From a virus: a DNA stretch of 22,351 nucleotides. The position numbers and the translations under genes are program-made. Below, piece after piece: positions 4,066 through 21,301 of this stretch. Below the pieces are notes generated by a model. That model did no database searches, was not told where the DNA came from, and was given only the letters and a program-made list of their open reading frames with translations. The DNA lies in the IMG/VR virus record IMGVR_UViG_3300032285_000287, positions 1 to 22,351 of that record; one strand, given 5' to 3'. How positions within the stretch are numbered: position 1 is the first letter of the stretch; every line of letters starts with the position of its first letter.

Positions 4066-5049
4066 TTAGGCTGGAACTGCCAAAGCGAAGGCAGAGCTAG
4101 ACTTAGCTGAACCAACAGAGGCGGCATCACGCAAACGAGCCACACCATAGATAGTGTCAGCAGTAAACAATGTACCGAGGTACTCTTGTTTGTACTGAGT
4201 CTGTGTACGAACAGACATTTGCTCAACCAAGACCATAGAATCACGATGGCCCATCAAGCAGATGCGGTCAGCACCAGAGTTACCATAGCCATAATCAGCA
4301 TTGGAAGTAACAAATACAGGCATTCCATACAAGTTACCGATTTCGCCATTACGGATGGTATTGTTGCCAGCGCCATCACCAACGAATGCTTGTTCTGTGT
4401 AACGAGCCAAGCCCATCAGCGTGTTACGGCTTGATGGTGGGATTACAAAGAAACGACCATCCATAGGGGTATCGTTGTCATCCAAACGCTGAATAGTGCG
4501 ACGAATAGCGGCATCTGTCAAAGCGGCAGCATTAGAAGATGTGCTGTTGTAAGCAGTAGTACCATCAGAGCCGATGAAGGCTTTGGTGGATGTATTGCTA
4601 GTAGCATAGTCATCAGTACCGACTGTAGCGCCATTGAAGCCACGACCCAACTGGATCAAGTCCAAGTCAACACGACGAGCCAAGGCATAACCAGCGTCTT
4701 CTGTATAGAAAGAACGCAATGATGTCAGGGCTTGAGTCTCAACGATGTCCTCAATCAAACGGCTATATTCATAGTGTTTGTTGATAGAAACCAAGACTTC
4801 AGACTCAGTATTGACCAGCAATGTGACTGCATCAGTCTTGCCTTTGGCGCTCGCATCGCTACGAACAGGTGCTGGAATGTGAACAGTATCACCTTTCTTA
4901 CCACGGAAGCTCATCTTCTTGACAGCGTTAGCCATCACGAGGTTCTTCTTGTAAGCAGCAATGATCTCATCAGACCAGATTTGGGGGATAAACTTCGCAG
5001 CAGTAGTTACTGTTACGTTGTTATTGGGTGCAAAAGCTGTATTAGCCAT
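4066..5049 (-). CDS. major capsid protein (HK97 fold)
   Basis: 327 residues. The N-terminal arm (1-40) is followed by a segment rich in strand/helix patterns typical of T7 gp10/P22-like coat proteins: IWSDEIIAAYKKNLVMANAV (24-43), GDTVHIPAPV (54-63), a long central helix region (about 95-140) and LVEQMSVRTQTQYKQEYLGT near the C-terminus. It directly follows the scaffold-like gene, as in podoviruses, and is followed by a strong terminator. GGAGA precedes the ATG. The identification rests on both context and sequence style. Confidence 0.9.
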   Translation of the reverse strand: MANTAFAPNNNVTVTTAAKFIPQIWSDEIIAAYKKNLVMANAVKKMSFRGKKGDTVHIPAPVRSDASAKGKTDAVTLLVNTESEVLVSINKHYEYSRLIEDIVETQALTSLRSFYTEDAGYALARRVDLDLIQLGRGFNGATVGTDDYATSNTSTKAFIGSDGTTAYNSTSSNAAALTDAAIRRTIQRLDDNDTPMDGRFFVIPPSSRNTLMGLARYTEQAFVGDGAGNNTIRNGEIGNLYGMPVFVTSNADYGYGNSGADRICLMGHRDSMVLVEQMSVRTQTQYKQEYLGTLFTADTIYGVARLRDAASVGSAKSSSAFALAVPA

Positions 5050-18530: not shown

Positions 18531-18638
18531 TTACTCTAGGTCGCCAGTTAGCTCTAAGGCTTGGTTTATCAAGTGAAGCGGAACATTCTTTCCATCTTTT
18601 ACTTTGTCTAACAGGATCATGGCTTCAAAATAGTTCAT
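18531..18638 (-). CDS. 35-residue conserved-looking micro-protein
   Basis: ATG at 18638 to TAA at 18531: MNYFEAMILLDKVKDGKNVP, then LHLINQALELTGDLE. It starts within the stop of the initiator gene (ATGA), and its length and order recall a very short family found next to DnaT-like proteins in Burkholderiales phages. Amphipathic helix, acidic end. Possibly a partner of the initiator; inference only. Confidence 0.6.
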   Translation of the reverse strand: MNYFEAMILLDKVKDGKNVPLHLINQALELTGDLE

Positions 18639-19396
18639 GCCGTTTTCCTTAACTCTGCCATCTTCGCCAATACTGCAAGCGGAATAGGTGCTGCCTTTTT
18701 GTCATCCTCTTTGATTTTCAACAAAGCAGGGTCTGGCTCATTTGATGGCGGAACTGTGACCCTGCCAATATCGGCAGGATTTGCTTTCGTCGCAACCCAA
18801 TCTGCTTTGAATGCCTGCCAACCACGCATACAACATTCTTCTAATGCTTTCTCAAGAGTCCATCCTGCTTTTTCAGCTTCTGACATCAAACCATTTAAAG
18901 CTCGTTGGGTCATAGGCGCTCTCTTAGCTTTTCTTAAAGTAAGAAAGTCCTGCCAAACAGAAATAGAAACGCCTTCAGGCGGTGCAACGCTAGTTGTCTT
19001 CTTTTGTTTCTGTTCTGTATCTGTATCTGTATCTATAGCGTTACTGGAACGTTCTTGTAACGTTTCATTAGCGTTACTTGGTTGTTTCTTTTTATTACGA
19101 TACTTTCGAACCCGCATGGTGCTTGAGTCTGAGACGAATTGACGTTTATCCCAGTTTAATATTTTCCAATGCCTATCAATAAAATTCTTGTTGATAAACA
19201 ATTGTTTTGTTTCAACGAGTTCTGCTTCTGTTAAACGCAATTGAAACGCAATCTCTGTTTCATGTAACGTTTCAAGAGTTTCGCTACATCTTAGGCAAAG
19301 CAACATGACATAACGTCTTTGCATCGCCTCTGGAAGCATTTGAATTTTAGGGTCGTGAGCGAACTCAGAATAGAGTCTGAACCAAGGATTAGCCAT
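18635..19396 (-). CDS. phage replication initiator / DnaT-like protein
   Basis: 253 residues. The N-terminal domain (1-100), MANPWFRLYSEFAHDPKIQM with helix-turn-helix-like segments, resembles phage O-like winged-helix initiators. The linker (about 101-140) is polar, with TDTDTE encoded by a hexamer repeat. The C-terminal domain has WQDFLTLRKAKRAPMTQRAL (148-167) and RGWQAFKADWV, the pattern of DnaT-like primosome domains. It would recruit the host helicase at the phage origin. Linker DNA also holds iteron-like repeats. First gene of the minus operon. Confidence 0.75.
   Translation of the reverse strand: MANPWFRLYSEFAHDPKIQMLPEAMQRRYVMLLCLRCSETLETLHETEIAFQLRLTEAELVETKQLFINKNFIDRHWKILNWDKRQFVSDSSTMRVRKYRNKKKQPSNANETLQERSSNAIDTDTDTEQKQKKTTSVAPPEGVSISVWQDFLTLRKAKRAPMTQRALNGLMSEAEKAGWTLEKALEECCMRGWQAFKADWVATKANPADIGRVTVPPSNEPDPALLKIKEDDKKAAPIPLAVLAKMAELRKTA
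19015..19032 (-). repeat. three tandem CTGTAT hexamers
   Basis: CTGTAT three times in a row (plus strand), coding for alternating Asp-Thr in the initiator linker. Slippage-prone microsatellite; copy number may vary between relatives. Confidence 0.8.
19036..19078 (-). repeat. iteron-like repeats within initiator gene, candidate origin
   Basis: TAGCGTTACT occurs at 19036-19045 and 19069-19078. GTAACGTTTCA lies between them at 19057-19067 and again at 19264-19274. CGTTAC and its inverse GTAACG alternate. This falls at codons 107-120, the linker, which is where phage lambda carries its O-binding iterons. Confidence 0.45.
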
Positions 19397-19482: not shown

Positions 19483-19511
19483 TAGCTGGATTCCATAATA
19501 ACAAAATTATT

Positions 19512-19694
19512 CTACCTTGTAAACAACTGCTCTAGGTCTATTGGACGATTTAGATGTAACTCTAAAGTCCTGGCAAGCAAAGCCGTGACAGATGCAGAGA
19601 AGTCCTCTGGTTCGGATACATAAGCGCCAGCCATTGTTTGAGCATACTCAAGCAAGGTTTCAGCACAAGTTTGTTCAATTTGTTCGATGTTCAT
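19512..19694 (-). CDS. small acidic helical hypothetical protein
   Basis: 60 residues, MNIEQIEQTCAETLLEYAQT, predicted all helix, acidic. Its ribosome-binding site is weak (AGGCTACTC). It is first in line upstream of the initiator gene on the minus strand, opposite the ERF operon. Position suggests a regulator or an early protein, but no DNA-binding motif is seen. Confidence 0.5.
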   Translation of the reverse strand: MNIEQIEQTCAETLLEYAQTMAGAYVSEPEDFSASVTALLARTLELHLNRPIDLEQLFTR

Positions 19695-20201: not shown

Positions 20202-20816
20202 ATGGGTGTACATAAAAAGCTGATGGATGCAAGGATTCTCTTGCAACAAGCACCACTCAAAAAGTCAGGTCACAATAAGTTTGCAGGCTACCAGTACTTT
20301 GAGCTTGGTGACTTCTTGCCAACAATCAATCAAATCTTCTCCAGAGTTGGTCTGTGCGGTGTTGTATCGTTCGATAAAGAACTGGCAACCCTGACCATTA
20401 CAGACACAGAAGACAACTCTGAGATCAAGCTGACAAGCCCTATGGCAGATGCCAATCTAAAGGGATGCCATCCAATTCAGAATTTAGGAGCGGTGGAGAC
20501 ATACACCAGGCGTTATCTTTGGGTATCAGCAATGGAGATTGTTGAGCATGATGCTTTAGACTCTTCTGCTCCACTTAAAGAGGATAAGGTAATCATCAGC
20601 CCTACTCAGGGTGCGCAAGACAACATCCCTATTGAGGAACTAAGGTATCTTGAAGAAGTGGCAGTTGATCTGATTGCTATGTGTGAGCAAGGTGATCCCA
20701 AGGCAGCTTGGGTTAAGTTGGAAGGAGAGAACTTGGACAGCGAACAGAAAGTTGCTCTGTGGACTCTATTGCCTAGCAAGGTTCGTAGTGCTTTGAAGAA
20801 GGCCAAGGAGTTGTGA
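20202..20816 (+). CDS. erf: ERF-family single-strand annealing recombinase
   Basis: 204 residues. The ERF pattern is clear: KFAGYQYFELGDFLPTINQI (26-45), LTSPMADANLKGCHPIQNLG around 78-95 and GAVETYTRRYLWVSAMEIVE (96-115). The C-terminal third (145-204) is helical and mixed-charge. P22-type Erf anneals complementary single strands during recombination and genome circularisation. AAGGAGTTAATC before the ATG is an excellent ribosome-binding site. Downstream SSB-like protein fits the pathway. Confidence 0.9.
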   Translation: MGVHKKLMDARILLQQAPLKKSGHNKFAGYQYFELGDFLPTINQIFSRVGLCGVVSFDKELATLTITDTEDNSEIKLTSPMADANLKGCHPIQNLGAVETYTRRYLWVSAMEIVEHDALDSSAPLKEDKVIISPTQGAQDNIPIEELRYLEEVAVDLIAMCEQGDPKAAWVKLEGENLDSEQKVALWTLLPSKVRSALKKAKEL

Positions 20817-21301
20817 TGGAAATAGATGAAATCAAGCTAATAGATTTTTTACCAAACACACACATCTCAATAGATGGTCGCCTTTGGAGAAATGGTAAAG
20901 AAAAGAAGTTTACTGTTGGGCCAATAGGTTATGAAGTTGTTAGTTTTTCAACAAATAACAAAACAAAAACATATTACAAACATAGATTGCTTCTTCATGC
21001 TTTTGTAGGTGAGTGTCCAGTTGGTTGTGAGGCTTTGCATATAAATGGCAACAGATTGGATAACCGACTTGAAAACCTTAGATGGGGAACAAGAAAAGAA
21101 AATGTTTCTGATGCTATTAAGCATGGAACAGCGACCATAGGTTTGAAAAATGGTCGTGCCAAATTAACTACAGAGATGATTAAGACTATTCGTCAATCTG
21201 GGTTAATAAATGATTCTGTAGATAAGCTATCGAATCAATTTCAAGTGTCTGTAACAACAATCAGACGAGTATTAAATGGATTGACATATAAAGGTGTATG
21301 A
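20816..21301 (+). CDS. free-standing HNH homing endonuclease with HTH tail
   Basis: 161 residues from an ATG at 20816, which shares its A with the ERF stop (TGATG); AAGGAG lies just upstream. The HNH core is YYKHRLLLHAFVG (53-65), then ALHINGNRLDNRLENLRWGT (73-92) with H75 and N83, followed by KENVSDAIKHG. The C-terminus (about 118-155) has helix-turn-helix pattern. Such genes spread by cutting intron- or gene-less relatives. It appears richer in A/T than the ERF gene, consistent with transfer. Ends as ATGA with the next gene. Confidence 0.9.
   Translation: MEIDEIKLIDFLPNTHISIDGRLWRNGKEKKFTVGPIGYEVVSFSTNNKTKTYYKHRLLLHAFVGECPVGCEALHINGNRLDNRLENLRWGTRKENVSDAIKHGTATIGLKNGRAKLTTEMIKTIRQSGLINDSVDKLSNQFQVSVTTIRRVLNGLTYKGV

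Follow-up and report, generated by a model that had tools for sequence, protein, structure and literature searches.

The DNA analysed here, referred to throughout as ‘the window’, is the whole of a 22,351-base virus record, and represents a fragment of a tailed phage with terminase and structural genes at its left. The gene of interest (Table 1) encodes a replication initiator of the O type, the type in which a lambda-like origin within the gene is expected: its product matches PHROG 678 (‘replication initiation O-like’, 9.5e-21), PHROG 10469 (‘DnaD-like helicase loader’, 1.2e-14) and other initiator families, while a Pfam search of the same protein returned no RepA_N match and only a sub-threshold match to Phage_rep_org_N. 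Downstream of it lie a 70-amino-acid gene without an assignment and then a RusA resolvase, and its divergent neighbour is an ERF/SSB recombination module. An HNH-type (homing-endonuclease-like) reading frame at 20813-21301 on the plus strand, situated between the genes for the ERF annealing protein and SSB, is apparently an insertion into that module. No P-like loader or DnaB gene was found among the neighbours that were tested (a subset of the genes in what is itself a genome fragment). The weak promoter-like site upstream of the initiator gene belongs to a class of sites (TTTACA-17-TATTAT) whose count is not above that in shuffled sequences. The cumulative GC-skew minimum of the window falls at 18.5-19.5 kb, which is weak evidence for an origin because the direction of the genes switches there; confounded in this way, GC skew was dropped as proof of an origin.

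Table 1. Features of the initiator gene and its surroundings (positions are those of the window)
Feature	Position	Strand	Remarks
Replication initiator gene, O-like / DnaD-like, 253 aa	18635..19396	-	PHROG matches and 124 IMG/VR relatives; proposed origin inside
N-terminal domain, codons 1-104	19085..19396	-	AlphaFold model; N-domain similarity tracks iteron similarity
C-terminal domain, codons ~140-253	18635..18979	-	PHROG 678 match at residues 96-207
Remote iteron in N-domain, codons 41-47	19256..19276	+	GTAACGTTTCA at 19264-19274; coding strand GAAACGTTACA, codons 42-45
Iteron 1 (AGTAACG..; coding strand AGTAACGCT), codons 107-109	19069..19078	-	AGT AAC unchanged in every homologue compared
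Iteron 2, opposite orientation (GTAACGTTTCA; coding strand GAAACGTTACA, GAA ACG TTA CA), codons 111-114	19057..19067	+	GAA ACG TTA invariant
Iteron 3 (AGTAACGCTA; coding strand AGTAACGCTATA), codons 118-121	19036..19045	-	Near-invariant; adjoins tract
(GATACA)3 tract (GATACAGATACAGATACA), codons 122-127, encodes DTDTDT	19016..19033	-	Directly after iteron 3; 0 synonymous steps
Promoter-like site (weak), TTTACA-17-TATTAT with TG extension	19495..19523	-	Upstream of initiator gene

In an AlphaFold model of the initiator (mean pLDDT 67), both the N-domain and the C-domain are helical, the former with a small element of two strands as well. Between them, residues 107-135 are disordered, and the confidence of the model collapses there in the manner of a disordered linker. 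The PDB folds nearest to the model include DnaD and the plasmid initiators 4pt7, 4pta and 5kbj, none of them at a significant level (Foldseek, E >= 0.14), and a search of the PDB with the initiator sequence gave no match. The N-domain probably folds as a winged helix and would recognise the iterons; the C-domain is exchangeable and presumably faces the replisome.

An earlier note, made from the raw sequence, had proposed that repeats within the linker of this gene form a candidate replication origin. The repeats themselves are present as it described them: TAGCGTTACT occurs twice, at 19036 and 19069, and GTAACGTTTCA occurs twice, at 19057 and 19264, with the cores CGTTAC and GTAACG alternating in orientation (+,-,+,- at 19039, 19057, 19072 and 19264). 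Their densest part was correctly placed in the linker between the N- and C-terminal domains, where three iterons of alternating orientation, with cores 15 and 18 bp apart, occupy codons 107-121 of the modelled disordered stretch; the C-terminal domain, which the note called DnaT-like, matches PHROG 678 (O-like). Two items were missing from that description: the (GATACA)3 tract that follows the cluster, and the status of the 19264 copy as a separately conserved site. Within 239 bp there are four cores where dinucleotide shuffles predict 0.19 (P=5e-5), and four are found in the gene where 0.40 are expected if synonymous codons are shuffled and the protein is kept (P=1.5e-4); these P values are post hoc, and about 9% of the window’s 240-bp segments hold some hexamer at least four times. 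Enrichment in a single sequence is for that reason not decisive, and it is the comparative evidence that settles the matter.

That evidence begins with a scan for the DNA pattern at fixed spacing, which recovered 49 stretches, every one of them in frame within an initiator gene. GTAACGTTTC has only one or two copies in each of 14 phage records, which are 23-50 kb long, and the two members of a pair are 207 bp apart in 10 related records and 196 bp apart in Pseudomonas phages. A divergent initiator without the MANPWF start (L126, around position 4255) carries the same spaced block of GTAACG, GAAACGTTACA and AGTAACG in the absence of the remote site, which suggests that the iteron cluster was either transferred or acquired by convergence. 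Two wine phages, CRBO14221 and OE33PA6 (L130 and L135), harbor a different initiator with the core GTCACG (AGTCACGTGACATCACGTGACAGTCACGCAATAGATACAGATACA), in a layout and with a tract like those of the window. Among the records with an O-like initiator is the 39-kb record of Limnohabitans phage DC33 (L137, PQ492659.1), whose taxonomy line reads Inoviridae, a filing that looks like a misassignment.

Conservation of codons was compared in 30 distinct genes with the window’s type of N-domain (58-94% protein identity to the window), and synonymous steps were counted on a tree for which the remainder of that domain was used. Across this set, the codon is constant wherever the residue is kept in AGT AAC, GAA ACG TTA, the second AGT AAC and the GAT ACA units, and the spacing between iterons is constant, while the number of GATACA units varies. 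Codons 41-47 have undergone one synonymous step against 18.4 expected (P=2e-4), and codons 107-127 have undergone nine against 50.4 expected (P=1e-5, the limit of resolution), with six of those nine at Arg116, between iterons, and none in codons 121-127, at the tract. These two regions are the most constrained windows among the first 127 codons of the gene. The earlier note had named as its own refutation a finding that homologues keep the SNA and ETL peptides and scramble the codons; the opposite is seen, since the codons are ‘frozen’ in close relatives and distant ones keep the DNA but alter peptide, frame and orientation.

The distant relatives provide multiple examples of such alteration. 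In the Pseudomonas phages PP9W, YMC11/07/P54, YMC/01/01/P52 and D14H, whose initiators are ~50% identical to the window’s over the N-domain, the site at gene base 124 is the exact reverse complement, GTAACGTTTC (Val-Thr-Phe), of the window’s GAAACGTTAC (Glu-Thr-Leu), such that the inverted site reads DVTFH where the window reads LETLH. At gene base 320, the position of the window’s iteron 1, PP9W again carries GTAACG, and in all four phages GTAACGTTTC is read there as Cys-Asn-Val-Ser (CNVS) rather than as the window’s SNA. In phage Silvergun the DNA is TGTAACGTTTCAGTAACGGCC, and the second site lies in another reading frame. The cores at the remote and linker positions also covary: both are GTAACG in five initiators (L158, L217, L235, L256 and L489) and both are GTGACG in two others (L213 and L232), and an Asn-to-Asp replacement follows the DNA, with Asp in initiators of the GTGACG class and Asn in those of the GTAACG class. 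The inversion of a site in place, together with the covariation of two distant sites, therefore points to a double-stranded binding site, as opposed to an explanation at the level of protein or RNA. By these comparisons, the repeats are constrained as DNA and not as peptide, and the locus is a clear-cut natural example of amino acids being dictated by a DNA site written into their own gene.

Among 86 distinct initiators, similarity of the N-domain predicts similarity of the iterons (rho 0.35, partial 0.35, 0/300 permutations), and similarity of the C-domain does not (rho -0.01); the former correlation may be partly a matter of physical linkage, because the iterons adjoin the DNA of the N-domain. 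A phage-specific recognition module would nevertheless call for just such a pattern. An exchange of the N-domain brings an exchange of the iterons with it, and an exchange of the C-domain leaves them as they are. The C-domain is replaced in many of the relatives L021-L035, and is kept in L036-L049 in combination with another N-domain. Three of the latter (L036, L038 and L046) lack GTAACG iterons and carry repeats of their own (TGTTAGC, TGCTAGC and TGCTATC), an assignment that was made by eye. Exchanges of halves on either side of the tract are common in the same 86 initiators, with 32 pairs in which the C-half is similar and the N-half different and 217 pairs in which the reverse is true. One such chimeric relationship joins L036 (5001-5663) to the window (18635-18990): the C-halves are very similar, the N-domains are unrelated, and the junction coincides with the hexamer tract.

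The tract itself extends well beyond the window’s relatives. Of 34 initiators of the GTNACG type, 26 have their last core at a distance of 5-6 bp from it. A scan of IMG/VR for (Asp-Thr)4 encoded by any codons, free of any condition on gene or frame, returned at least 80 loci, of which at least 41 of those listed are pure GATACA. Among the matches listed, 35 of 40 pure-GATACA proteins match PHROGs for replication initiation, primosomal proteins or helicase loaders (E<=1e-6), and the 72 bp directly upstream of the tract are repeat-dense in 29 of 38 cases, compared with 8 of 38 downstream; in these initiator genes the pure GATACA runs sit directly after iterons of many unrelated sequences. Where other codons are used, the (Asp-Thr)4 repeats among the matches listed belong to head, tail and miscellaneous proteins, with no initiator family in the 25 families listed. 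Nor was one seen in ten proteins that were checked individually, of which L212 (GATACG) may nonetheless be an initiator. A corresponding scan for Glu-Thr repeats showed that GAGACA and GAAACA dominate the initiator-like reading frames, directly after repeats such as GATATCA or GCTAGC. High-GC phages retain GATACA against their own codon use (a comparison in which the value for L154 is unreliable, as it rests on few reading frames, and in which units within one tract are not independent).

A bacterial genome scan for (GATACA)4 shows that the tract alone does not identify an origin, because many of the matches are DT-rich surface proteins or intergenic repeats; about 15 of 80 have an initiator-like length and position, and not all of these are initiators. 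In six bacterial contigs (L453, L454, L430, L455, L381 and L418), from Bifidobacterium, Brevibacillus, Nocardia, Sphingobium and Mariprofundus and presumably from prophages, initiator-like genes with different iterons are followed by (GATACA)n.

With respect to what the tract does, simple AT-richness was considered and rejected as a full explanation: GAGACA is only 50% A+T. At the window’s tract, 40 bp rank in the 93rd-97th percentile of instability within the gene without being its minimum, and tracts are less stable than their own iterons in 55 of 55 GATACA cases and in only 17 of 26 GAGACA cases. That difference makes recognition of the opened strand by a protein likely, and not easy melting alone. 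Based on these sequence comparisons, we propose that (GATACA)n is a shared unwinding or helicase-entry tract that may double as a recombination joint. A wider generalization is also conceivable, which we put forward as tentative: that an origin element so far without a name, (GANACA)n, chiefly in the forms GATACA and GAGACA, is widespread in tailed phages and is the tract at which strands are opened, or the helicase enters, in a sequence-specific manner. Initiators with unrelated DNA-binding domains and iterons would have it in common, and its role would resemble that of the unwinding region beside DnaA boxes. The tracts of lambda, P22 and phi80 would then be degenerate remnants of it, and it would also serve as a joint for the exchange of origin-recognition modules. 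No description of a hexamer tract common to unrelated initiators was found in the open-access literature that was searched. If the tract is indeed common, the opening of DNA by phage initiators could be studied across phages with one short and easily altered sequence.

A different account, which bears on the role of the tract alone and which we consider rather unlikely, would reduce it to a recombination joint, used for swapping the half that holds the N-domain and iterons while the C-half is kept, with no direct part in initiation. The frequency of half swaps on both sides of the tract favours it, as does the marking of recombination features just past the iterons in the lambda record. It leaves unexplained, however, both the preference for a distance of 5-6 bp between tract and last iteron and the upkeep of GATACA in high-GC phages, and it is in any case compatible with an additional role in replication; as a second function of the tract it is plausible, because the half swaps break there.

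For the iterons, initiators often autoregulate, and the sites might accordingly be operators through which the initiator or another regulator controls transcription or the timing of replication, with the origin elsewhere. The remote N-domain site could act with the linker sites by looping in such a scheme; but the sites lie in the middle of the gene, away from the promoter, they abut a tract that is also found beside the iterons of unrelated initiators, and their arrangement matches that of annotated phage origins, which together render the operator explanation improbable. More doubtful still is the proposition, raised for SNA and ETL as a rival in the earlier note, that the SNA, ETL and DTDT peptides are what is selected and that the DNA repeats merely follow. 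The residues, too, are conserved in the close family, and DT or ET is the frame in which nearly all tracts are read. Yet the six-fold degenerate Ser and Leu codons are invariant, the relatives described above carry the same DNA in other frames or orientations with other residues, one initiator (L308) reads its GAGACA tract in another frame as Arg-Asp (RDRDRDRD), and in 83 of 86 initiators A is the last base of the codon that precedes the tract, even though the residue there may be Pro, Thr, Leu, Ile, Lys or Gln; for the iterons, with their frozen codons and their inversion and change of frame in relatives, protein constraint is rejected. Hardly credible at all is an RNA-level element or overlapping antisense gene behind the synonymous freeze: GTAACG and CGTTAC can pair as a hairpin (with a terminator-like stem at 19057-19077), and a 147-amino-acid frame is open opposite the initiator gene (18699-19142, plus strand), but the in-place inversion of the remote site between phages keeps a double-stranded site and not an RNA sequence, searches for Rfam families and for tRNAs found none, and the antisense frame, which was rejected as a gene, stops short of codons 41-47 and is broken in the majority of homologues, with only a few relatives sharing the window’s open frame.

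Taken together, the motif, its position and its spacing are conserved independently of the encoded peptide, the motif is seldom met elsewhere in the genomes of related phages, and its changes accompany those of the N-domain. The repeats are thus very probably iterons bound by the initiator encoded in the same gene, forming a lambda-like origin of phage replication. The earlier note’s candidate origin gains support from the codon freeze and from conservation as DNA rather than peptide, and origin function is what we infer from them. In the mechanism that we envisage, the N-domain (probably a winged helix) would bind the three linker iterons and the one remote site ~200 bp away; the complex would open the adjacent (GATACA)n, a tract rich in purines and poor in T on its coding strand; and the C-domain would bring the host replicative helicase to the opened tract. 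The peptide encoded by iterons and tract would serve as a disordered linker that tolerates this use as a DNA site, and looping may allow the remote site to contribute a further initiator molecule, or the site may control timing. Among the weak points of the case are that the iterons are short (~10 bp) and that only three are clustered. A guess from raw sequence has nonetheless been turned into a testable origin, and the order of elements suggests how phage origins might be picked out of metagenomes, by an initiator gene with short repeats in its middle and (GANACA)n after them.

Origins made of iterons within a gene, and differing between one phage and the next, are already known from lambda, P22 and phage L; pSK41-type plasmids have in-gene origins as well. 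In lambda O (ori-lambda), P22 gene 18 and phi80 gene 15, as in the window, annotated iterons lie within the gene between a DNA-binding N-half and a C-half, with a sequence specific to each initiator; the earlier note’s parallel with lambda is borne out, in that the lambda iterons are annotated at about codons 116-145 of O, compared with codons 107-121 here. Lambda carries its iterons and an AT-rich tract in the middle of O, where the minimal unwinding unit consists of two iterons and the tract (PMC7466680), and the iterons within O-type genes differ with the initiator (PMC7466680, PMC8022706). In these phages an unwinding tract, which in lambda begins GACACAAAAGACACT, stands directly 3' of the last iteron, just as the window’s tract directly follows iteron 3. 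The start of the lambda AT-rich region is GACACAAAAGACACTATTACA, and similar stretches, rich in A and C and poor in T, are present in P22 and phi80; the resemblance of these tracts to (GATACA)n is suggestive only. The differences are also clear: lambda has four iterons of ~18-20 bp, whereas the sites of the window, with their GTAACG core, measure ~10 bp, and three of them form a cluster of alternating orientation while the fourth is remote; the lambda tract is a heterogeneous A-rich stretch, whereas the window’s is a pure tandem hexamer; and, unlike lambda, the window has a DnaD/initiator-like N-domain and no P gene among the neighbours tested.

Two further systems resemble the window in other respects. 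Gene 18 of Salmonella phage L contains six 11-bp TGTCCAACGGA repeats in its coding region, a proposed origin that is unlike the lambda and P22 repeats (PMC8022706); these are short in-gene repeats, as here, of a different sequence. In pSK41 rep, of the staphylococcal RepA_N plasmids, the origin is central in the gene and an N-terminal winged helix binds the Rep boxes, the linker is dispensable as protein, and pPR9 is a chimeric half-swap (PMC5703833). The solved structures 4pt7 and 4pta, which carry ‘initiator’ in their titles, are among the folds nearest to the model of the window’s initiator, at a non-significant Foldseek level, whereas the window’s initiator has no RepA_N Pfam match and resides in a phage context. 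Set beside these systems, and judged from sequence comparison, the locus appears to be a further, clearly supported in-gene iteron origin, of which the new elements are the iteron and the remote fourth site.
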